This document shows, one piece after another, positions 6,670-34,823 of a stretch of DNA of 47,378 nucleotides; position 1 is the first letter of the stretch, and the number at the start of each line of letters is the position of its first letter. This stretch comes from Candidatus Thiodiazotropha endolucinida (GTDB lineage: Bacteria; Pseudomonadota; Gammaproteobacteria; Chromatiales; Chromatiaceae). The stretch spans positions 1-47,378 of the forward strand of contig NZ_MARB01000031.1 of the NCBI RefSeq assembly GCF_001715975.1. The letters are read 5' to 3'. The notes beneath the pieces were generated by a model. The model did not search any database. It saw nothing but the letters and a program-made list of their open reading frames with translations, and was not told where the DNA came from. The position numbers and the translations under genes are program-made.

Positions 6670-7997
6670 ACAGACGACATAGTCTCAGCGGCCGCCTGAT
6701 CTTATTGTTCATCTGCGTCAGTATCCTGGTCGCGCTGACGGTGCGAACAGGATTCCGTTACGGCATCCAGGGAGAGTTTCGTTCCCTGGCAGAACCCCAT
6801 CTGTCGGAATATATCGAACACCTGGTAAAAGAGATCGGTTCCCCACCCGATCCCATAGCCGCGGAAAAACTGGCGGAACGCCTGCAAATCGATATTCAGA
6901 TCCAGACCAAGGGTCAGACCTGGTCCAACAACGGTGATATCGTCAATACAGAGAGATTGGTGTTCCATTCCCACTCTCTCAGCACCGGCCGATTGGTCGA
7001 AATCAACCATGACGAGCATCGATTTATGCTGCGTCTGCAGGATAACGACGGCACCATTCTGCTGATGACACGGAATCGTCTGGATAACGGCTCCTTGGCA
7101 CTGGTGATCGGGGTGACAATTATTACCGTATTGCTGCTCATTGCCCTCACCTACCATCTGGTAAAGCGTCTGTTTCAACCATTACAGGACATAGGCCGGA
7201 GTGTAGCCAGATTCGGCTCCGGTGAACTCGACCACCGTATCGCCATCAAACGCCGGGATGAGCTGGGAGATCTGGCCAACAGCATCAATACCATGGCGGA
7301 CGAGATCGAGGCGATGATGGAGGCAAAGCGTCAACTGCTGTTGGCCATCAGCCATGAACTTCGCTCCCCGCTGACCCGCGCACGCCTGAATGCCGAATTG
7401 ATACAGGCCGGTGAACCCCGCGACAGAATTATTGCGGATCTGCAGCTACTGGAGCAGGAACTCGCTGAATTGTTGGAGACTGAACGCCTCGGTAGCAAGC
7501 ATGCCAAACTCGATCTACAGGCAGTCGATCCCGGACAGATCATCGATTCCGTCATTCAGCAGTACTTCTCCACCGCAACCATTCGCTGTAAACATGAAAA
7601 CGACAGTGTATCGATGCAATTGGACCCGGTACGTATTCGTCTGCTGATAAAAAACCTGCTGGAGAATGCACTGAGACATACGCCTGAATCCGGTGAACCG
7701 GTGAAGATCGACAGCCGGGTTAGCGACCGGGTTTGGCGAGTCAGCGTAAAGGACCAGGGGGAAGGGATTCCGAAGGAACACCTGCCACATCTCACAGAGC
7801 CCTTTTACCGGGTCGATAAGGCACGCCAAAGAGAGACCGGAGGGTATGGCCTGGGTCTCTATCTCTGTCGTGTCATCGCCGAGGCGCATCGAGGAGGCTT
7901 GCATATTGAGAGCGAACCGAACTTGGGAACCCGGGTTCTCATCACCCTGCCTTTTGACGAGGCAATTACCGGATCACCATCAAAGCCCGGGGTATAA
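6666..7997 (+). CDS. cpxA: Sensor histidine kinase, CpxA-like
   Basis: A 443-residue membrane kinase. One helix at about 9-27, a periplasmic loop of about 110 residues, a second helix (143-163), HAMP (164-220), HisKA with phospho-accepting H230 in SHELRSPLTRARL, and an HATPase with N box (LIKNLLENALRHTP), DQGEGIP and GYGLGLYLC. The H-box wording is typical of CpxA. It would autophosphorylate in response to envelope stress and pass phosphate to the regulator encoded immediately before it. The gene ends 21 bases from the convergent dgt stop. Confidence 0.85.
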   Translation: MNRRHSLSGRLILLFICVSILVALTVRTGFRYGIQGEFRSLAEPHLSEYIEHLVKEIGSPPDPIAAEKLAERLQIDIQIQTKGQTWSNNGDIVNTERLVFHSHSLSTGRLVEINHDEHRFMLRLQDNDGTILLMTRNRLDNGSLALVIGVTIITVLLLIALTYHLVKRLFQPLQDIGRSVARFGSGELDHRIAIKRRDELGDLANSINTMADEIEAMMEAKRQLLLAISHELRSPLTRARLNAELIQAGEPRDRIIADLQLLEQELAELLETERLGSKHAKLDLQAVDPGQIIDSVIQQYFSTATIRCKHENDSVSMQLDPVRIRLLIKNLLENALRHTPESGEPVKIDSRVSDRVWRVSVKDQGEGIPKEHLPHLTEPFYRVDKARQRETGGYGLGLYLCRVIAEAHRGGLHIESEPNLGTRVLITLPFDEAITGSPSKPGV

Positions 7998-8018
7998 GAT
8001 GCAAGACAGCTATAAGTA

Positions 8019-9380
8019 TCAACCCGGCAGTGAGATGCCGGTTACCTTCTTATACAGCGAGACCGCATAGGAATCAGTCATTCCGGAGACAAAATCGGTC
8101 AAACGCAACAAACGCGTATAGTGATCCTTGGCCGGCTGACCATGGGGCCCGATGAACTGTTCCGGAATCAGTCGAATCATCATCTGGCTGCGCGGGCTGG
8201 CGCGCTCACCTTGGGCCGCCACATCATCAATGATAGGGATAAAACGCTCCAGCAGTTCACTGATTACCTGAAAGCCTGCAGTCTCTATCTCGATCACCTC
8301 CGGGGCGATATAGATCTTTTCATGCGCGACCTCTATCAGACGGTCCATCTCGGCACGGTGAGGAATCTGGCTCATTAACGGCTGATCGATCTGGCCCGCA
8401 AGAATCGCCTCTTCATGATCGAGAAAACAGTGCAGTATCTCACTGATCGCCTGGCTGATCACCTTGGCCCGTAAAAACTCGATCTTCTCTTTATCCCCCG
8501 TTATGCGGTTCAGGCGTTTGTGTCGTGAGGACGAATCAGGCAATACAGCACTGAACAACTCCATCGCCTCGTGATAACTGAGATGCCCCAGGCGATAGCC
8601 ATCTTCGATATCGATGACCCGATAACAGATATCGTCGGCCGCCTCCACCAGAAACGCCAGCGGATGTCGATGCCAGATAGCCAACACCGGATCCCGGCGT
8701 AACAACCCCACTGTCTCGGAGACCTCGCTGAAGAGGTCCTGGTCCTCCGCTGTGAAACCCGGTTTTTTCGCACTGACCCCCTGGAAACGCCCGTTTCCGA
8801 TACATGATTCGCGGGGATACTTGGTAAATGCCGCAAGCGTGGCGCAAGTCAGTTGCAGTCCACCGGGATTATCCCTGTTCTGCAGCCGGGTCAAGACACG
8901 AAAGCCTTGCGAGTTACCTTCAAAATTGAGGAAGTCCTCGCGCTGGCTGCCCTGTAATACGGCAACACGCTGTTTACCGTATTCACCATTCTCCGCCCAG
9001 TGCCGGATTGCATCTTCACCGGAATGGCCGAACGGAGGATTACCGATATCATGAGCCAGACATGCAGCTGCACAGATATCACCAAAATCCGAGGCCTCAT
9101 TCTCTTTGAGCTTGTGGCGGGCGATGATCTGTTCCCCGACCAGGGTACCCAGGGACCGGCCAACACTGGAAGACTCAAGACTGTGGGTCAAACGGGTACG
9201 GACATAGTCGACTTTCGAGAGGGGAAAGATCTGCGTCTTATCCTGCATCCGCCTGAATGCCGAGGAAAAGACGATCCTGTCCAGATCACGCTGAAAATCA
9301 GTGCGCGTGGAGCTGGCAGTCGAGTGATCGCTCGAACCCAGGCGTTTGTGAGAAAGTAATTGAGTCCAGTTCATCGACAT
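8019..9380 (-). CDS. dgt: dGTP triphosphohydrolase-like HD protein
   Basis: A 453-residue HD-superfamily protein. Metal ligands are visible as H66 (RLTHSLESS), H110-D111 (LAHDIGNPPFGHSGEDAI) and the later aspartate in the EAADDICYRVIDIEDG helix. The N-terminal RTDFQRDLDRIVFSSAFRRMQDKTQ segment is the family signature. Dgt-type enzymes cleave dGTP or other dNTPs to the nucleoside plus tripolyphosphate and so tune dNTP pools and phage resistance. Length matches the dGTPase-like family (around 440-500). Start is ATG at 9380; a second ATG two codons later is equally plausible. It is convergent with cpxA. Confidence 0.9.
   Translation of the reverse strand: MSMNWTQLLSHKRLGSSDHSTASSTRTDFQRDLDRIVFSSAFRRMQDKTQIFPLSKVDYVRTRLTHSLESSSVGRSLGTLVGEQIIARHKLKENEASDFGDICAAACLAHDIGNPPFGHSGEDAIRHWAENGEYGKQRVAVLQGSQREDFLNFEGNSQGFRVLTRLQNRDNPGGLQLTCATLAAFTKYPRESCIGNGRFQGVSAKKPGFTAEDQDLFSEVSETVGLLRRDPVLAIWHRHPLAFLVEAADDICYRVIDIEDGYRLGHLSYHEAMELFSAVLPDSSSRHKRLNRITGDKEKIEFLRAKVISQAISEILHCFLDHEEAILAGQIDQPLMSQIPHRAEMDRLIEVAHEKIYIAPEVIEIETAGFQVISELLERFIPIIDDVAAQGERASPRSQMMIRLIPEQFIGPHGQPAKDHYTRLLRLTDFVSGMTDSYAVSLYKKVTGISLPG
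8022..8043. terminator. Hairpin at the cpxA/dgt convergent junction
   Basis: CCGGCA (8024-8029) pairs with TGCCGG (8036-8041) around a 6-base loop, with AA/TT extension beyond one bulge. It overlaps the last codons of dgt. On the plus strand it is followed by pyrimidine-rich sequence (TTACCTTCTT), so it could end cpxA transcription. Confidence 0.35.
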
Positions 9381-9430
9381 GCGGCCATTCTAACCCAGTG
9401 TCCGTTGGGATACAGCCTTAAAGCAGCAAG

Positions 9431-9586
9431 CCGCGAATGAACGCCAATCACCGCACAATTTGCGCGAAATAGTATGAGTGATTGAGTGGTAATCGTATGT
9501 CTTCCCACACAGTAATGAGACATTTATGACTCAACCGGAATGATATCCATTTGCGTTTGTTTGCGGTGATTGGCGTTCATTCGCGG
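9431..9586. repeat. Interspersed inverted-repeat element
   Basis: A perfect 25-base inverted repeat: arm 9431-9455 begins CCGCGAATGAACGCC and arm 9562-9586 is its exact reverse complement, ending GTTCATTCGCGG. The arms enclose 106 bases with no gene. The GAATGAACGC/GCGTTCATTC core is a wording I associate with dispersed repeats in proteobacteria. It sits between the divergent starts/ends of dgt and the EamA gene; no transposase is present. Confidence 0.7.
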
Positions 9587-24393: not shown

Positions 24394-25191
24394 ATGAATA
24401 TCAAAGACCTCTCAGTCATCCTGGTGGAACCCTCGCAGACCCAGCGAAAACTCATCGCCAAGCAACTCGCAGCACTGGGAATCAGCCATATCGAATTATT
24501 CAGCAATGGTAGCGACACGCTGCAGGCCCTGCCTACAAGTAAACCGGACGTCGTTATCAGTAGCCTCTATTTGCCGGACATGACCGGGACCGACCTTGTA
24601 TTTGAGATGCGCGACGATGAGGAGCTGATGCAAACCGCATTTATGTTGATCTCCAGTGAAACCAGCCTTTCCTACCTGGATCCGATCCGCCAGGCCGGCG
24701 CCGTAGCAATACTGCCAAAGCCCTTCACCCACGACGACCTCTATCTGGCCATGCAGGCCACCCTGGACTATGTAGAGACCCCCGATCTGGAACTGCACGA
24801 CATCGACACCGAAAACATACGAATTCTGATAGTCGATGACAGCAGTATGTCCCGCAAACATATACGCCGCATTCTGGAGGCCATGGAGATTGAAAACATT
24901 ACCGAGGCAGGCAATGGCGCCGAAGCCGCCAGCCTGATCGACCAACACTATTACGATCTGGTCATTTCGGATTACAACATGCCCGAAATGAATGGTCAGG
25001 AACTGGTCGATCACATCCGTGAGCAAAGCGGGCAACCCGGCCTCCCTATCCTCATGGTAACCAGTGAGTCCAATGAAAACCGGCTGGCGGCAGTACAGAA
25101 ATCCGGTGTTTCAGCAATTTGTGACAAACCCTTCACAACAGAGTCCATACAGAGTTTGTTACAGCAGATTCTGTTGGATCTATCAACTTAA
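24394..25191 (+). CDS. Tandem receiver protein, pseudo-receiver plus receiver
   Basis: A 265-residue protein made of two receiver domains and nothing else. The second (about 142-262) is canonical: D148-D149, phosphoacceptor D193 (LVISDYNMPEMNG) and lysine in CDKPF. The first (about 6-127) keeps the lysine (LPKPF) but lacks the acceptor: S57 replaces aspartate in VISSLYLPDMTG and V11-E12 stands at the acidic pocket. It is therefore a non-phosphorylatable partner domain. There is no output domain, so it may act as a phosphate sink, a relay or a protein-interaction switch for nearby kinases. The RpfG-like gene begins about 400 bases later on the same strand. Confidence 0.88.
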   Translation: MNIKDLSVILVEPSQTQRKLIAKQLAALGISHIELFSNGSDTLQALPTSKPDVVISSLYLPDMTGTDLVFEMRDDEELMQTAFMLISSETSLSYLDPIRQAGAVAILPKPFTHDDLYLAMQATLDYVETPDLELHDIDTENIRILIVDDSSMSRKHIRRILEAMEIENITEAGNGAEAASLIDQHYYDLVISDYNMPEMNGQELVDHIREQSGQPGLPILMVTSESNENRLAAVQKSGVSAICDKPFTTESIQSLLQQILLDLST

Positions 25192-25588: not shown

Positions 25589-26647
25589 ATGTCTAACGTA
25601 CTTATCATTGATGATCAATCAATAACCAGAATGATTTTACAGGAGTTGGTTAGTTCCATAGATAAGGATATCACTTCAACCTGCTTTGCCGACCCTACCC
25701 AGGCGCTCGAATGGGCAAAATCCCATGAAATCGATCTGGTTATCACGGATTACAAAATGCCGCAGATGGATGGCATTGAATTTATCAAGTGGATCAGGCG
25801 AATACCTCGCTGCAATGATGTTCCGGTGATGATCGTCACCTGTGTGGAGGATCAATCGATTCGCTATCTTGCACTGGAATCCGGTGCCAACGACTTTATC
25901 ACCAAACCCATTGATCATACGGAGTGCCGCGCCCGTTGCCATAATATGCTTACCATGAGTCTGCAGCGAAAACTGATAAAGGACCGGGCGTTGTTGTTGG
26001 AGCGGGAGATACGTAAAACCACTCAGGAGCTGCATGACCGGGAGCAGGAGACCCTGATGAGGCTGGCGAAGGCCGGGGAGTACCGGGATGAAGACACCGG
26101 GAACCATATCCTGCGCATATCCCGCTACTCAAAGCTGATTGCCCATCGCCTTGGCTTATCTCACGAACGATGTGATTTGATCGCCCAGTCCGCACCAATG
26201 CATGATATAGGCAAAATCGGCATACCTGACGCCATTCTTCTGAAGCCTGGGCGATTAACCCCGGAAGAGTATAAAATCATGCAACGCCACACGCTTGTAG
26301 GCTATGAGATTCTTAAAGACAGCCTCTCGAAATATATTCAGATTGGTGCTGTTATTGCGCTCAATCACCACGAAAAATTCAATGGTGAGGGCTACCCACA
26401 CGGCCTGAAGGGCGATAGCATTCCTCTGGAAGCTCGTATCGTGGCCATCGCCGATGTGTTCGACGCCCTGGTAACCGACAGGCCATACAAAAAGAGCTGG
26501 CCTATGGAGAAGGCGATTGAGTATATTAGTGAGGAGCGAGGCAAACACTTCGATCCGGATTGTGCCGAGGCCTTTCTCAGTGAACTACAGGAGGTAGAAT
26601 TGATTCACCATGCATTAAAAGCCGCCCCCAGAAGGACCGATGCGTGA
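25589..26647 (+). CDS. RpfG-like response regulator, REC-HD-GYP phosphodiesterase
   Basis: A 352-residue protein. The receiver (3-120) has D8-D9 and acceptor D54 (LVITDYKMPQMDG) and lysine in ITKPID. A helical linker (125-160) precedes an HD-GYP domain (about 160-340) with H205-D206 (MHDIGKIGIPDAILLKPGRLT), H260-H261-E262 and G268-Y269-P270 (NGEGYPHGLKG), all ligand and signature residues intact. HD-GYP enzymes hydrolyse c-di-GMP, and RpfG is the classic REC-HD-GYP partner of the DSF sensor RpfC. The next gene starts inside this one (GTGA overlap), and an RpfC-like kinase lies convergently two genes on, which supports that pairing. Confidence 0.9.
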   Translation: MSNVLIIDDQSITRMILQELVSSIDKDITSTCFADPTQALEWAKSHEIDLVITDYKMPQMDGIEFIKWIRRIPRCNDVPVMIVTCVEDQSIRYLALESGANDFITKPIDHTECRARCHNMLTMSLQRKLIKDRALLLEREIRKTTQELHDREQETLMRLAKAGEYRDEDTGNHILRISRYSKLIAHRLGLSHERCDLIAQSAPMHDIGKIGIPDAILLKPGRLTPEEYKIMQRHTLVGYEILKDSLSKYIQIGAVIALNHHEKFNGEGYPHGLKGDSIPLEARIVAIADVFDALVTDRPYKKSWPMEKAIEYISEERGKHFDPDCAEAFLSELQEVELIHHALKAAPRRTDA

Positions 26648-28548
26648 GCATACCTGCGGAGAACCGCCTGCCATCCCCGGCTGATCTATCCATGACAGGA
26701 CGCCGATACCACGGTACGGCTTTTATCGTTAGTAGCATTGTGGTCTGCTATATGGCAAGTCAGTTTCTCTGGCTGGTACCGTCTGCAGACCAGCTGGCAA
26801 CCGTCACCCTGGCTGCATATTACGCCATGATACGGATGATCCAGCTCATCACAATTCGTAAACCGTATCATCTCCCGCTGCATTTACATGGTCCGCTGGT
26901 CGTTTTCGATCAAATATACCTGGGTGTTATGACGCTGTCCGGACTACCTGTCTACTTGACATTGCCACTGAGTGGATTATTGCTCTTTATGACGAGATCA
27001 CTTGGTGTGAGTTATGTATTAATCGCCATACCCGTAACTTTTGCCACTGTGCTCTATTCCCTGATCGGCTTTTCCGGTTTTCAATTAAATGCACCGACCG
27101 CCATCATCATATCACTGGCGACGGTTTTCACTGCCAGCCTCAATATTCTGCTGCCACTATTCATCGCGGCAATACGCAAATCCAACCCATCAGAGAAACG
27201 CAATTCACAGAAGAACGCACCTCAGGAATCCGAGCAAGCACCACAACAGAATACACGTTTTTCCTCTCCTATCATGGAGAAATCAGGGTTGCGTATCCTG
27301 ATAATATCAAATAACGATAATCGGCTGACATCAATAACCGACCACTTCAACGATTGGGGCTATGACTACACAATCAGCAGGAATTGTGTTCAGGCGTTCA
27401 GGCACATGCTGTCACGTTTTCAGCTCAATAAATTCGTTTCCTACACAACTGTGATAGTTGATCAGCAGGGGCTGGATCTCGATCCGATATCACTGGCGCA
27501 ACTCATAAAAAATGAATCCCGGCTGGCAGGTACTAGACTGATCTGCTACAAGGCTCCCTCGGTTCTTCATCAGCAATCACAGCAGCTACACCAAGCGGGC
27601 TATGCCGCATTCCTCGAAAGTCCCCTGAATAAAGCCCAACTGTTCAGTGCGCTTCACGGGGAGCAACAGCAATACCTGGATTCCGCCAACATAATATGCC
27701 TCTCAGAACACAGAGCACATAAAAAGAGCAAACCAAAACAGGGAATTATCCTGCTTGCAGATTCCGCGTCTTCTGAAAGAACCACTCTCAGTAAAGCACT
27801 TATTCAAGCAGGCTATAAAGTGCTTATGGTGGATGATGGCGATCAGGCGCTTGATGCGCTTGAAGAAGAATCCGTTGACCTTGCGATTGTCAATATCAAC
27901 CTCTCAATCATGAGCGGCACACAAGTACTCAAACTCCATCGCTTTACCACACCCTATAAACTGTGGGTGCCATTTGTATTTTTGAGTAATGAAAACAGTG
28001 CGGATACTTTACGGCTTTGCCGTTCAATCGGAGTACAGGCCTGCTTCTTCAAACCTGTGATTGCGACCGATTTGCTGGAGATGATACCTACATTGCTCAC
28101 CCAGCATCAATCAACAGATGCCAACCTCAACCACATAACACCTGAAGAGAACAATCTAACACATTTTCAAAACGCCAGCCTGCTGGATCATATGACACTT
28201 TTGCGTCTGGAGCGGCTGGATAGCGGCATCACATTCATTAATGACCTGATCAAAATCTTTGAGGCGGAAGGATCCGTAATACTACGCACCATGCGGCAAG
28301 CCGTGGACAGGAAAAAATTCGGACTATTTCTCGATCAAGCACAAATACTATTGGACAGTGCCGGCCAACTTGGCGCATTTTCCCTGTATGAGCTGAACCG
28401 TAAAGCGACCAGGTTACGGGCCTATGAATTCGAATATAGAGGTTATGAAGTATTGGAAGAAATTGAAAAAACTTTCAACCTCACCCTGCAAGCCTATTCC
28501 CATTATCTCTCTCAGCGTGCCGCAACGCTGAAAAAGGACCGGATTTAG
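26644..28548 (+). CDS. Membrane scaffold with degenerate receivers and Hpt; RpfC-like without kinase
   Basis: A 634-residue protein. About five to six membrane helices (27-46, 52-70, 86-108, 110-124, 124-142, 150-175), then two receiver-like domains (216-340 and 368-490) and an Hpt-like C-terminus (515-625). No HisKA or HATPase is present. The first receiver lacks the acidic pair (N223-N224). In the second, N417 replaces the phosphoacceptor (VDLAIVNINL). In the Hpt region Q567 stands where the RpfC-like neighbour has its phosphorylatable H773, while the surrounding GAFSL and Q(A)xxHYL(Q/S)QR segments match. It therefore looks descended from an RpfC-type protein but catalytically silent. It overlaps the RpfG-like gene by four bases (GTGA). 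In Xanthomonas, RpfH, an RpfC-like membrane protein without kinase, sits in this place. GTG start. Confidence 0.85.
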   Translation: MSIPAENRLPSPADLSMTGRRYHGTAFIVSSIVVCYMASQFLWLVPSADQLATVTLAAYYAMIRMIQLITIRKPYHLPLHLHGPLVVFDQIYLGVMTLSGLPVYLTLPLSGLLLFMTRSLGVSYVLIAIPVTFATVLYSLIGFSGFQLNAPTAIIISLATVFTASLNILLPLFIAAIRKSNPSEKRNSQKNAPQESEQAPQQNTRFSSPIMEKSGLRILIISNNDNRLTSITDHFNDWGYDYTISRNCVQAFRHMLSRFQLNKFVSYTTVIVDQQGLDLDPISLAQLIKNESRLAGTRLICYKAPSVLHQQSQQLHQAGYAAFLESPLNKAQLFSALHGEQQQYLDSANIICLSEHRAHKKSKPKQGIILLADSASSERTTLSKALIQAGYKVLMVDDGDQALDALEEESVDLAIVNINLSIMSGTQVLKLHRFTTPYKLWVPFVFLSNENSADTLRLCRSIGVQACFFKPVIATDLLEMIPTLLTQHQSTDANLNHITPEENNLTHFQNASLLDHMTLLRLERLDSGITFINDLIKIFEAEGSVILRTMRQAVDRKKFGLFLDQAQILLDSAGQLGAFSLYELNRKATRLRAYEFEYRGYEVLEEIEKTFNLTLQAYSHYLSQRAATLKKDRI

Positions 28549-28574
28549 ATCTTGCAATGCCGCTGCGGTAATAG

Positions 28575-31076
28575 CTAAGGTTGCCTCTGTTGAAGATAGT
28601 GGTTCAGTGCCTGACAGGTCACGGAATAGGTCGAGGATATTTTTGCCAACATCTTTACTCCGCGGCTATGTAATTCCGACTGTTCGATACCCGACACGGC
28701 AGAGCACACCGTCTTGAGAGAGAAGGCTCCCAAACCCGAGGCATTGTCTGCGATGGCATGGGCACAATCCCGATATTGATTAAGATCCCCCTCCTCCAAT
28801 GACTTTTGCATATTTATCAGCTGTGCATCACTGTCGCGTAAAAAGCTATCAGCCATACTCTGCAGAAAATTTGGGTCTTTACTCAGTTTTTCCAAATCTA
28901 TCAGTGTCTTGTGATCGAGCACCTGAAGATGCCTCACCGAATTAGCCTCTCGTAGAGGCTGATCCATCAATGTACCCGGTGGAATATCCATCATTTCTAT
29001 ACCCAATACACGATTCACCATTTCAAGCAGGTGAGATGAACGGACCGGTTTAGTCAAATAGGCGCTGACACCAATCTCATCACACTGTTTAACAGCTTCC
29101 GTCGTTGCATTCGCTGTAAGAATCATGAATGGCATCTGTGCTTCATCCACATGCATGATGCGGTAGTGTTTTATGACATCAATGCCACCAACATCAGGCA
29201 TTTGCAGGTCTACTATCGCCAGATCATAGGGTTTTGTATCCAATAGCGCTATAGCCTCCTCTCCATTGGAAGCCACATCAACGGTGTGACCCTGCATTTC
29301 CAATATTTTCTTTACCACTTTCTGGTTGATCAGATTATCTTCCGCCAACAATATACAAGAGTTTGTGACTTCTCTCGGTGGTAACCCCTTAAACACCATA
29401 GACTCGGCATCTACTCCTTTTCGTGCCTTGTGAATTACATACATGAATGCATGGTGGAGCTTTTTATGAGTGACGGGAGGTGACACGACAGCGGAACATC
29501 CATCGCTATCACCTGCCTTGATATCATCCCTTACACAGACTATAGAAAGCCTGTCCAGACTTTTTTCCGCCCTGATTGCGCTTATCAACTCACCAACAGC
29601 AAGACCCGTGTAGTTTTCGTCAATGACTGCCATATCAAACGGAGAGTCCATTTTCTCCGCATTCAATAACTCAAGAAAACCATCGGCAACACTGGTGCAT
29701 ACTTTTGTTATTATCTGCCGTTCCTGCAGATAATCGAGAACATGGTTCTCATTTGACAGCAAATCGGTAAACAGGAGCACTTTGACTTCATCGAGACATA
29801 TCTCATCATCTAACAGTTTCCCTGGCAGCGCGGGTAATACGAACCAGAAACGACTGCCTTCGCCAGGCCGGCTTTCAACCCCGATCTCCCCTCCCAACAG
29901 CTCAACCAACTGTTTTGTAATCGTTGTCCCAAGCCCACTGCCGGATTGTTGATGAATTGTTGTCTCGTCACATTGAGAGAAACGGTCAAATATCCGCTGT
30001 TGCTGGGATTCCGAAATACCAATACCGGTATCGATCACCTCAAACAGCAGCCAGGAATCTCCCCCTTTAAGGTGTTCTCCCGCAGTTGGAGAGAGCTGCA
30101 GTGTCACGCTCCCTTGTTCGGTAAACTTGATAGCATTATTTAGAAGGTTGATCAGTATCTGTCGCACCAGCTGTGGATCTGTCCGAACCACGGGTGTTAC
30201 GGCCATATCGATCCAACTGTTCAACTTAATCGATTTTGCATCCGCGCTAGGCTGCATCATGGCCAGGACATCCTGAATGAGCCGTAAGATGTCGTAATCT
30301 TTAAGTAACACTTCCACCTTACCTGCTTCGATTTTTGAAAAATCAAGAATATCCTCTATCAGATTCAACAGTGTCTCTGCTGATGCCTGAATGGTGCGCA
30401 TAATCTCCCGTTGCTCGATTCCCATTGGTGTGCTCGCCAACAAATCGGTCATCCCGACAACACCGTTCAGAGGAGTACGGATTTCATGACTCATATTCGC
30501 CAGAAAACGACTCTTTGCCGTACTGGCGGCTTCAGCCCGTAACTTTTCTTTTTCCAGGCGCCTCAACAGCAGTGTTACATACAGGGTCGTTATCAAGAGC
30601 CCGATTAACAGGCCGGTACTCATAAGCTTGTGCTGAAACCAGAATTCATTATTCATTATCACAATGCTGAATCCGATCAGACTAAGCCCACTAGTTAGAA
30701 CGAGTGCAGTCGTACCAAAACGAAAACCATTGCCCAAACTGATCCAGAGATAGAAGACATAGAGCATTGCCGCATATTCTCCGCCTATCCACATTGACCA
30801 GGTGATCATCCCCACATCGAACAGCATGGTCATTTGACGGCGTAAAAGATAGCGCTTTGGATCGATGGTAATCGCAATGAGAATACAAATTGCGACGAAG
30901 AAATATAGCGAAGCAATATAACGAAGCTGATGAAAGAGGTCATCCGGTGGCGTGAAGAGTTGCAATGCGAAGCAATAGATTAGCATCAGTATTGCCATCA
31001 CGACGCGCACAATCGACTGCTCCCACTCCCGGTCTGGGGCGGACTTCAGTCGATCAATTATTGATTTAAGTTGCAT
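28575..31076 (-). CDS. RpfC-like hybrid sensor kinase (DSF-type sensor)
   Basis: An 833-residue hybrid kinase. N-terminal soluble leader REWEQSIVRVV, about five to six membrane helices (22-40, 53-71, 82-97, 101-120, 123-142, 152-172), HisKA with H197 (ANMSHEIRTPLNG), HATPase with FTEQG and SGSGLGTTI, a weak receiver (430-545, acceptor-like D486), a good receiver (573-690; E578-D579, D623, lysine in LTKP) and an Hpt domain with H773. This layout and the EQ-IVR opening match RpfC, the sensor of diffusible cis-2-unsaturated fatty-acid signals. No RpfF synthase lies in the window. The gene is convergent with the RpfG-like operon, 26 bases apart, unlike the co-directional rpfGHC of Xanthomonas. 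Confidence 0.87.
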   Translation of the reverse strand: MQLKSIIDRLKSAPDREWEQSIVRVVMAILMLIYCFALQLFTPPDDLFHQLRYIASLYFFVAICILIAITIDPKRYLLRRQMTMLFDVGMITWSMWIGGEYAAMLYVFYLWISLGNGFRFGTTALVLTSGLSLIGFSIVIMNNEFWFQHKLMSTGLLIGLLITTLYVTLLLRRLEKEKLRAEAASTAKSRFLANMSHEIRTPLNGVVGMTDLLASTPMGIEQREIMRTIQASAETLLNLIEDILDFSKIEAGKVEVLLKDYDILRLIQDVLAMMQPSADAKSIKLNSWIDMAVTPVVRTDPQLVRQILINLLNNAIKFTEQGSVTLQLSPTAGEHLKGGDSWLLFEVIDTGIGISESQQQRIFDRFSQCDETTIHQQSGSGLGTTITKQLVELLGGEIGVESRPGEGSRFWFVLPALPGKLLDDEICLDEVKVLLFTDLLSNENHVLDYLQERQIITKVCTSVADGFLELLNAEKMDSPFDMAVIDENYTGLAVGELISAIRAEKSLDRLSIVCVRDDIKAGDSDGCSAVVSPPVTHKKLHHAFMYVIHKARKGVDAESMVFKGLPPREVTNSCILLAEDNLINQKVVKKILEMQGHTVDVASNGEEAIALLDTKPYDLAIVDLQMPDVGGIDVIKHYRIMHVDEAQMPFMILTANATTEAVKQCDEIGVSAYLTKPVRSSHLLEMVNRVLGIEMMDIPPGTLMDQPLREANSVRHLQVLDHKTLIDLEKLSKDPNFLQSMADSFLRDSDAQLINMQKSLEEGDLNQYRDCAHAIADNASGLGAFSLKTVCSAVSGIEQSELHSRGVKMLAKISSTYSVTCQALNHYLQQRQP

Positions 31077-32519: not shown

Positions 32520-32523
32520 CTAG
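32464..32523 (-). mobile_element. Diverged MITE arm at the end of the TIR-WD40 gene
   Basis: Read on the minus strand this stretch begins CTAGGGCCTGTTTTCACTAA and continues to CTGAAAAAGCGCCAATCAAGG, close to the first 60 bases of the complete element at 46031-46235 with roughly seven differences. The remaining right part of that element is absent here. The gene's stop codon uses its outer edge. Confidence 0.75.
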
Positions 32524-34823
32524 GGCATTCCAAATTCCGAAAACGTTTTTTGATGAACCTCTTCAACACCCATACTTGAGATATATTCACTCCATTCGGC
32601 CCGGGTAAGATTTCTCCCGGCAACCTGCCTTGCCAAACTCAGGAGCTCAATATCACTGAGTTGTGCGTAAAGATTGTTTATTCCCGAGCCTGCGGCAGGT
32701 TTCTCGAACATCCACAACCAAGGCGGACCATCTTTATCCAGTGTAACCAGCCAGTCTTTGTCTGGTGCGAAAGCGATCTCCTCAGCCTCTATCCGTCTGC
32801 CAAAGAATGTGAAGGGCTGTTGTTCCGGATTACTCAAGTCGAAATCCCATACCACCGGTTCTGCCGCCAACACCAAGAGCGCATTTCTGCTTTTGAAAAA
32901 ACCCAGTGAAGATACTCCACGTCCCTTGACATCAAATTCACGCATCATGCGCAGCTCTCTGTTGTCGCGCTTCGATTCGGCATAGTCGTTCAAATCCCAG
33001 ATGCGCACCTTGGAATCATATCGGCTTGCCGCAGCGATCCAGCGGTCGTCACTGCTGAATGTTATATGATTCACCTCTTCCGGCAGTGTCAAATAGGCCC
33101 GATATGACTCATCTCCCAAGTGCCACAGTGTCACACCCCTGTCGTTGTCACCGCTATCGCCAACCTTCCATCCGACAACCGCGAGCCAATTCCCATGGGT
33201 ACTGACATCCAGCATGGCGATGGCCCTGGACTGCAGAAAATCTTTCTTATCGATGGCAATCCGCCATGCATTATTGTCACGGCGCCATAAGTCAATCTTG
33301 CTACCGCTTACCGCCAGTCTGTTATCTGTATCGGCAGCGGCAAGCCATCGACTGTTCGCACTGAAACGCAAAAGGTGTATACCGGTACTTCCTGCCAGCT
33401 TTTGAGCCATAACCGCGCCACCTTCATCAAGGTTGCGCAGATCGATCAGATTCGGGGTGAGATCGCGATCGAGTATGGCCAGCCAGTTTCCATCATCGGT
33501 AAACACCATATCTTCCAAATCACCCCAGTGTTCACCAATCTTTGATCGCGGCAATTCAGTGCCGATGATTTGTGTATCCATGAGGCTGACCGTATATTTG
33601 CCTTCAACTACGATCAACCAACGCCCATCCAGTGTGAGCGCTACTGGTTGGGCATCGACCTCCACTATCTCATTGCTCTCCAGGTTCACGAGATATTGAG
33701 TTGGCTTGTTTTCATCGTCGGATTCGGCCTGCACCATAAACCAGTTGCCTACGGGTCCATAGGTACGCTGTATCCTGCCTTTTGACCAGGAAATCGAGTG
33801 ATACGATTTGGATAGTCCATATGCATCAAGTTCGATAAAATGCAATCCGTTGCTGCTTGCAAATACGATTGAATCACTGTCGACAGAAAATGATGAGTAA
33901 TAGGAACCAGCCAGTACTTTGGCCATCGGCCTTGCCATATAAGCCGTCAGCAGTTTTGCCAAAGTCCTGCGCACTTCCTGTACCGTTTGTTCACCTGCCC
34001 GCTGGGTAATACGCATACCCTCCGCCGCAAGAAGGATTGCCAACTGAGGATTGGCATTCACCAGATTTTCAGCTTCCGATGCCAGGTTAAGGGCAACAGT
34101 TCGGCGATGATTGGCTTGGGCTTGTTCGAAGTTATCTGCCGTTTTCGTACGTTGTATGAAGAAGAGCACCGCCAGAGACAGTACAATGAAGAGCCCGATC
34201 GAGCCTACTACAATGGTTCTTCGGCGTATCCGCGTCGCGAAAGTCCGACTCTCTTCGATATATTCTTTTTGCAGTTCGGTTGAGGCCGGCTGTTTGCCTA
34301 AGGTGGATTGTTTCAACCACTCCTCCGCCGAGATGAGATCATCGCCGCGAAGCACATAACTCGAATTCCGCTCCTTTGTATCCCACTCACGCGCGCGTAT
34401 GTGTAAGCGTGTGTGGAGGCGCACCCATTCATGGTCAGTCTCAATGGTTTCAATCAGTTTTTCCAGACCATCGGTAAAGGCTTCACCTTGGTCGAAGGGC
34501 AGCCAATTCAGTTTTCTCAACTGTTGTGGTACCTGTGAGGGGTCGACAGGACGATAAACTATCGGAATCAAGCGCTTATTGTTCAACAACGCGTAGCTTA
34601 TCTCTTTCTCACATTCAGCGGATGCTGCCGATTCAGGCGTGATGACAAAGATCACGGCCTGGGCTGAATCAATTGCCTGTTGGATTTCCGGACGCCATTC
34701 AACCGCATAAGGAATGCTGTCTTGATCCACCCAGACTTGAAAATCTCTCTGTGTAAGGCTTTCTCGTAGTTTAACTACGAAATCCGTATCCACCCTGGAA
34801 TATGAGATAAAGATATCATCCAT
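32520..34823 (-). CDS. TIR domain-TM-WD40 protein
   Basis: A 767-residue protein. TIR domain at about 1-125 (DDIFISYSRVDTDFV; FQVWVDQD; the C71-x-x-E74 motif carries the expected catalytic glutamate of TIR NADases). A helical linker is followed by one membrane helix at 203-224, then a helical stretch (LASEAENLVNANPQLAILLAAEG) and a WD40-type propeller (about 290-720; several ...S.D..W.A.A...VR.WDL repeats). The tail (LARQVAGRNLTRAEWSEYI) is a motif I know from the ends of similar bacterial proteins, so little is missing. TIR-WD40 proteins may sense or signal through NAD cleavage, possibly in defence. The stop TAG is formed by the adjacent MITE end. The gene has no partner gene on its strand. 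Confidence 0.85.
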   Translation of the reverse strand: MDDIFISYSRVDTDFVVKLRESLTQRDFQVWVDQDSIPYAVEWRPEIQQAIDSAQAVIFVITPESAASAECEKEISYALLNNKRLIPIVYRPVDPSQVPQQLRKLNWLPFDQGEAFTDGLEKLIETIETDHEWVRLHTRLHIRAREWDTKERNSSYVLRGDDLISAEEWLKQSTLGKQPASTELQKEYIEESRTFATRIRRRTIVVGSIGLFIVLSLAVLFFIQRTKTADNFEQAQANHRRTVALNLASEAENLVNANPQLAILLAAEGMRITQRAGEQTVQEVRRTLAKLLTAYMARPMAKVLAGSYYSSFSVDSDSIVFASSNGLHFIELDAYGLSKSYHSISWSKGRIQRTYGPVGNWFMVQAESDDENKPTQYLVNLESNEIVEVDAQPVALTLDGRWLIVVEGKYTVSLMDTQIIGTELPRSKIGEHWGDLEDMVFTDDGNWLAILDRDLTPNLIDLRNLDEGGAVMAQKLAGSTGIHLLRFSANSRWLAAADTDNRLAVSGSKIDLWRRDNNAWRIAIDKKDFLQSRAIAMLDVSTHGNWLAVVGWKVGDSGDNDRGVTLWHLGDESYRAYLTLPEEVNHITFSSDDRWIAAASRYDSKVRIWDLNDYAESKRDNRELRMMREFDVKGRGVSSLGFFKSRNALLVLAAEPVVWDFDLSNPEQQPFTFFGRRIEAEEIAFAPDKDWLVTLDKDGPPWLWMFEKPAAGSGINNLYAQLSDIELLSLARQVAGRNLTRAEWSEYISSMGVEEVHQKTFSEFGMP

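Follow-up and report, generated by a model that had tools for sequence, protein, structure and literature searches.

What is a second RpfC-like membrane protein, one that has no kinase, doing between a response regulator of the RpfG type and an intact hybrid kinase of the RpfC type? The question is raised by a 47,378-nucleotide contig of Candidatus Thiodiazotropha endolucinida (NZ_MARB01000031.1, assembly GCF_001715975.1; hereafter the window, whose positions serve as coordinates), from a genus of sulfur-oxidising symbionts of lucinid clams. We find that the gene at 26644-28548 encodes a kinase-less RpfC paralogue under purifying selection, and that its second receiver (REC2) and its HPt domain, having lost their phosphate-carrying residues, are as constrained as the live ones of RpfC. 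Since kinase and phosphate carriers are lost yet selection persists, the protein most likely acts by binding partners. The explanation we favour, and hold to be somewhat probable, is a phosphorylation-independent pseudo-receiver/pseudo-HPt protein that would bind RpfG, and perhaps RpfC, at the membrane. The features concerned are as follows.

25589-26647 (+): RpfG-like response regulator, receiver plus HD-GYP domain of the cyclic di-GMP (c-di-GMP) phosphodiesterase type (Response_reg and HD_5 matches)
26630-26647 (+): Shine-Dalgarno-like AGAAGGA, and the GTGA in which the stop of rpfG overlaps the start of the kinase-less gene, read from the sequence
26644-28548 (+): kinase-less RpfC paralogue, 634 amino acids (Pfam, alignment, and tree)
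26686-27180 (+): its membrane part, residues 15-179, with six helices predicted by AlphaFold and four transmembrane segments by hydropathy
27286-27678 (+): REC1, a degenerate receiver, residues 215-345, with D273 retained, the acidic pair replaced by N223-N224, and the lysine gone
27739-28098 (+): REC2, a receiver domain, residues 366-485 (Pfam, E = 3.8e-14)
27892-27894 (+): codon of N417, which replaces the REC2 acceptor Asp
28165-28545 (+): HPt-fold domain, residues 508-634
28342-28344 (+): codon of Q567, which replaces the HPt phospho-histidine
28575-31076 (−): RpfC-like hybrid histidine kinase (TM-HisKA-HATPase-REC-REC-HPt), convergent with the kinase-less gene (Pfam)

An earlier note on this DNA, made from the sequence alone, had described a gene that overlaps rpfG by four bases and encodes a protein with membrane helices, a pair of receiver-like domains, and an HPt-like end but no HisKA or HATPase; the sequence and the Pfam matches bear this out. 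No HisKA or HATPase match was found by Pfam in the window protein or in the rest of a set of 18 diverse family members, 11 of which match Hpt, and the C-terminal domain has the four-helix HPt fold. The replacements at N417 and Q567 hold across the genus as well: The REC2 acceptor is Asn in all 20 copies that cover REC2, and the HPt histidine position is Gln in 16 and Gly in three of the 19 that cover the HPt domain, window included (L049 stops short of the HPt domain, and L050 covers neither). No conserved substitute histidine was found near Q567 in the genus copies. The loss of the acidic pair at N223-N224 is real but uninformative, as the REC1 of RpfC is likewise degenerate. Two retained residues may mark docking surfaces, although the receivers look dead: H432, in the REC2 stretch KLHRFTTP, does not vary among 19 genus rows, and 44 of the 47 kinase-less rows aligned across the family retain D273 of REC1.

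Both neighbors are intact. In RpfG, the receiver's acceptor D54 and the HD and GYP motifs (H205-D206 and G268-Y269-P270) are invariant among five aligned RpfG sequences. Each of nine genomes searched has a single RpfG of >50% identity; the runner-up match in the window's own genome is 48% identical over about half the length. The adjoining RpfC-like kinase retains H197, E579-D580, D623, T654, K676, and H773, the last of these as the earlier note had it; the HisKA His, REC2 Asp, and HPt His are kept in 24 of 24 RpfC rows, and in 36 of 36 in a wider set. The coupling to rpfG is equally regular: rpfG lies directly 5′ of the kinase-less gene on the same strand in all 20 genus loci, and the stop/start overlap is four bases in 12 of the 18 genus copies listed (the others are −23, 14, 14, 30, 30, and 30).

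The kinase-less gene, full or partial, is present in 20 of 21 same-genus relatives, with identities of 32%-94%. For the same six close species pairs, we compared the ratio of nonsynonymous to synonymous substitution rates (omega) by domain between the kinase-less protein and RpfC. REC2 has an omega of 0.053 (0.033-0.081) in the kinase-less protein versus 0.074 in RpfC, HPt 0.086 (0.059-0.123) versus 0.079, and REC1 0.087 versus 0.122; the membrane part, at 0.256 versus 0.122, is the least constrained part of the kinase-less protein. A separate run on eight and six pairs agreed with this. Among the computable pairs, some with synonymous divergence (dS) >1, omega over the whole gene is 0.07-0.24 for the kinase-less protein, 0.06-0.14 for RpfC, and 0.00-0.20 for RpfG. 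The kinase-less gene is thus under purifying selection. That it is instead a decaying, functionless duplicate, a possibility to which its lost catalytic residues and the broken copies in genomes G011, G014, and G120 might point, is very improbable: Omega lies at 0.05-0.09 in REC1, REC2, and HPt, the frame is open in 18 of the 20 genus copies not ended by a contig edge within REC1-REC2, and the proteins form a single clade over 12 genera. We reject it on omega and open frames, and with it the pseudogene decay that the earlier note had named as grounds for giving up its reading.

The profile matches and a tree of REC1-REC2-HPt agree on common ancestry with RpfC. The tree includes 37 of the 47 kinase-less rows, 10 near-copies or incomplete rows having been dropped. 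The kinase-less proteins form one clade (99/94), recovered in 200 of 200 bootstrap trees, which groups with window-type RpfC (96/80); a separate 56-row tree agrees. Some branches are long (e.g., L158, L154, and L152). Over all 47 rows, the REC2 acceptor is N in 24, D in 10, S in seven, and E in six, the HPt histidine position is H in 23, Q in 17, G in three, and L in four, and the full receiver set E-D-D-T-K is found in none. Outside the genus, the HPt histidine is kept in 23 of 28 rows and the REC2 Asp in 10 of 28. By parsimony, the state of the HPt histidine changes at least three times and that of the REC2 Asp at least five times; neither residue varies in 36 RpfC rows. Because the histidine is present in so many copies from other genera, phosphotransfer must have been lost secondarily. 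Judged from alignment and tree, the order of loss is kinase first and phosphate carriers later, more than once.

The earlier note had taken orthologues with an intact HPt histidine as evidence against its reading, and such orthologues do exist outside the genus, with none among the 19 copies inside. They are also what speaks for a residual phosphorelay role, in which the protein would serve RpfG as an extra HPt donor or a phosphate sink, as do the Pfam Hpt matches among the diverse members. We consider such a role quite unlikely for the window gene, given the uniform replacement of both acceptors within the genus, the lack of a conserved substitute histidine around Q567, and the absence of the full receiver set from every row.

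To place the family more widely, a profile search was made over 210 genomes of the order, with at most five candidates scored per genome. At least 98 genomes have a match at E = 1e-30, and the matches listed mix kinase-less frames with full RpfC. We then fetched 30 stretches from outside the genus, picked by rank or short open frame and thus not a random sample. A kinase-less protein lies on 28 of them (none on L159 and L161), and the addition of L051 and L052 gives 30 other-genus loci; together with the window genus, these span 12 genera, all in one family. In 28 of the 30 loci, rpfG is directly 5′ on the same strand; the other two, L051 and L160, end at a contig edge. The cluster often reads, with the first gene not always present, double receiver, rpfG, kinase-less gene, CMAS-type methyltransferase, ketosynthase (on the other strand), and then rpfC; rpfF is convergent. 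Across the 30 fetched stretches, the double receiver occurs 14 times, the methyltransferase 20 times, and the ketosynthase 21 times. Downstream from the kinase-less gene, 20 of 28 other-genus loci have a same-strand rpfC and a convergent rpfF, and seven run off the contig; at L146, neither rpfC nor rpfF was found within 5.5 kb.

A sample of the whole class (370 genomes, at most three candidates scored per genome, E = 1e-40) gave matches in 83 genomes, and most of the listed frames outside the family exceed 740 amino acids, as do full RpfC-type kinases. A few are short (in G255, G263, G310, G383, G472, and G517) and may be kinase-less, so that such genes may also occur outside the family.

Sister genus g61 and the window share the order metA, kinase-like gene, double receiver, rpfG, and kinase-less gene. 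In g61, the remaining rpf cluster follows behind the kinase-less gene in five of six genomes, and the sixth ends at a contig edge. The common order, with the full cluster in g61, identifies the window locus as a derived rpf cluster. The double receiver of the window is the following gene, whose homologue adjoins rpfG in nine of 20 genus loci.

24394-25191 (+): double-receiver response regulator, 5′ of rpfG (two Response_reg stretches)

Two observations concern the lipid genes of these clusters. At L153 (genome G076, 7169-9577), within an rpf cluster, the kinase-less protein is fused in frame to the CMAS-type methyltransferase (802 amino acids), or a stop has been missed. The CMAS-type methyltransferase and a FabF-like ketosynthase lie between the kinase-less gene and rpfC at L052 (7964-10336), L132 (10390-12667), and others. 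The presence of these two genes in sister-genus rpf clusters suggests a modified fatty-acid signal.

The arrangement recalls RpfH of Xanthomonas, which is called enigmatic in PMC3744752. RpfH is described as resembling the input domain of RpfC, with no phosphorylatable histidine and no known role, and its deletion alters only four genes (PMC3744752, PMC4504480, PMC3749722). Like RpfH, the protein of the sister genera is a kinase-less membrane protein whose gene stands between those for RpfG and RpfC, near a convergent rpfF. Unlike RpfH, with which we compare it by description only, it keeps REC-REC-HPt, and its membrane part is weakly conserved or shortened. In the window, the gene also lies between rpfG and rpfC, but rpfC is inverted; with rpfC on the opposite strand and rpfF on another contig, the window does not have a single rpfG-rpfH-rpfC operon with convergent rpfF.

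The earlier note had proposed an enlarged RpfH-like pseudo-sensor that could bind a fatty-acid signal. What stands is a kinase-less RpfC paralogue coupled to RpfG and, in sister genera, in the position of rpfH; the binding of the signal is not supported. In Xanthomonas RpfC, the juxtamembrane residues R15, D17, S18, E19, and Q22 are needed for the response to diffusible signal factor (DSF), according to PMC5391125. We built a spacing pattern, R-x-D-S-E-x-x-Q before the first transmembrane segment, from the residue numbers given there and applied it to the window, the genus copies, and L051. Neither the kinase-less protein of the window nor its copies in the genus match the pattern. Three of the five residues are present in the RpfC of the window and all five in the second kinase at the rpfF locus; the kinase-less protein of L051, from another genus, has two (E and Q). 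For the membrane part, the global profile match to RpfC is no more than faint, so its homology to that of RpfC is unproven. Hydropathy finds at most two transmembrane segments in clade B and most other-genus rows, and one Thiodiazotropha clade (L046-L049) lacks most of the membrane part, with Gly at the HPt position in all three copies that reach it. Since the sensor residues are missing and the membrane part is the fastest evolving and mostly lost in one clade, DSF binding by the kinase-less protein seems doubtful. It is accordingly improbable that the protein is an enlarged RpfH that, as a receptor without a kinase, would bind DSF or another lipid signal and communicate its state through contact with RpfG or RpfC, even with six predicted membrane helices, the rpfH position in sister genera, and the published likeness of RpfH to the RpfC input domain in its favor.

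Another candidate partner is RpfF, the DSF synthase. In the PDB, the family profile finds its best sequence match in the RpfC receiver whose structure was determined together with RpfF (3m6m_D, E = 1.3e-24; the next match is at 7e-16), and a Foldseek search with the model of the kinase-less protein gives a target TM-score of 0.87 for the same chain. (The whole-protein AlphaFold model is middling, with a predicted local distance difference test score [pLDDT] of 66 and a predicted TM-score [pTM] of 0.32, and fold searches with it return mainly receivers; the domain arrangement is therefore left uninterpreted.) The protein might thus be a membrane-bound trap that holds RpfF through REC2, as the Xanthomonas RpfC receiver does, with no need for phosphorylation: RpfC sequesters RpfF independently of the phosphorelay, according to PMC3749722, and rpfF belongs to the same cluster in sister genera. 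The distribution of rpfF in the genus makes this unlikely. At E = 1e-15, an RpfF match is found in the window's own genome and in 14 of 21 same-genus relatives (only 44% identical in G020), and none was found in G005, G006, G010, G012, G013, G014, and G018. Six of these seven genomes (all except G012; 93%-99% complete) keep the kinase-less gene, truncated in G014, a finding that favors RpfG over RpfF as the partner. In the seven genus rpfF loci that were opened, moreover, rpfF has a different location, next to another RpfC; the synthase of the window's own genome is on another contig, at a locus that also encodes two hybrid kinases. No rpfF was found in any of the four genomes (G005, G013, G014, and G018) whose clade has the truncated membrane part, which represents a single event rather than a test.

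Within the genus, the rpfF locus seems to be turning over rapidly. The kinase-less protein of G020 is 95% identical to that of the window, yet its RpfF (contig C8), near an RpfC-like match of its own, is 44% identical. In the window genome (L090, contig C7, 6983-9554), the rpfC adjoining rpfF is split into two open reading frames, and it is intact in G004; a CMAS-type synthase gene lies 3′ of rpfF at L090.

We return to the docking explanation, which could be pictured as follows. The protein is an RpfC paralogue whose kinase core was gone by the time the genus arose; its phosphate carriers were lost later, toward Candidatus Thiodiazotropha (Asn for Asp in REC2, Gln or Gly for His in HPt). Its HPt-fold tail would dock on the receiver of RpfG, encoded just 5′ with overlapping stop and start, and its receivers, perhaps REC2, may also contact the kinase or HPt of RpfC. 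The protein would thereby keep RpfG at the membrane and compete with the HPt of RpfC for it, which would set a threshold or brake on the activation of RpfG and hence on c-di-GMP breakdown. In relatives that retain the HPt histidine, phosphate exchange with the receiver of RpfG or RpfC may persist.

Several findings weigh against this explanation. The evidence for the partnership with RpfG, gene coupling and domain conservation, is indirect. With HPt histidines and REC2 Asp residues kept in other genera, the family is not wholly phosphotransfer-dead. Whole-gene omega exceeds that of RpfC in most close pairs, mainly through the membrane part. No kinase-less copy was found in the 92% complete assembly of G012. 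The copies in G011 (frameshifted near its end) and G014 (truncated near a contig end) are broken, both in fragmented assemblies, and that of G120, in another genus (L137), is split by TGA.

A broader proposal can be offered tentatively: Throughout the family, kinase-less RpfC paralogues may several times independently have turned from phosphotransfer to pure docking regulators. In the clam symbionts, contact alone might then gate RpfG, the only close RpfG found in the genome, and c-di-GMP breakdown would have come to depend not on DSF but on the ratio between dead and live RpfC tails.

Among known systems, Xanthomonas RpfC is similar in its order of membrane part, receiver, and HPt; its receiver is the nearest to REC2 among solved structures, and the window RpfC is paralogous to the kinase-less protein. 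The kinase-less protein differs from it in the absence of HisKA and HATPase, the replaced REC2 and HPt acceptors, and the DSF-sensor residues that were not found. The hybrid kinases ArcB and TorS have a REC-HPt tail that is similar by profile; unlike the kinase-less protein, they have a kinase, and its listed NCBIfam scores are all far below the cut-offs. A functional parallel is AHP6 of Arabidopsis, an HPt protein without the histidine that inhibits cytokinin signaling, as PMC3572949 describes it. The analogy is a working one only, to a histidine-less HPt protein that inhibits its phosphorelay. AHP6 is a plant cytokinin-signaling protein, presumably without receivers or a membrane part, and differs from the kinase-less protein in this.

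In the open-access literature, outside which most subscription papers lie, we found no description of kinase-less RpfC relatives with receivers and HPt, and nothing that joins Thiodiazotropha with c-di-GMP or DSF. RpfH is unexplained in the best-studied fatty-acid signaling operon, and a related arrangement is now found in another bacterial family. Its kinase-less RpfC paralogues keep putative interaction domains and have lost their phosphate carriers more than once. With them, a bacterial pseudo-HPt regulator becomes a testable idea, and they offer a concrete candidate for how symbionts might retune c-di-GMP while the DSF synthase is lost or moved.

Promoter-like and terminator-like sites lie within one standard deviation of shuffled sequences. 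Farther along the window, at 32520-34823 (−), lies a gene for a 767-amino-acid protein that combines a TIR_2 domain with WD40-like repeats.

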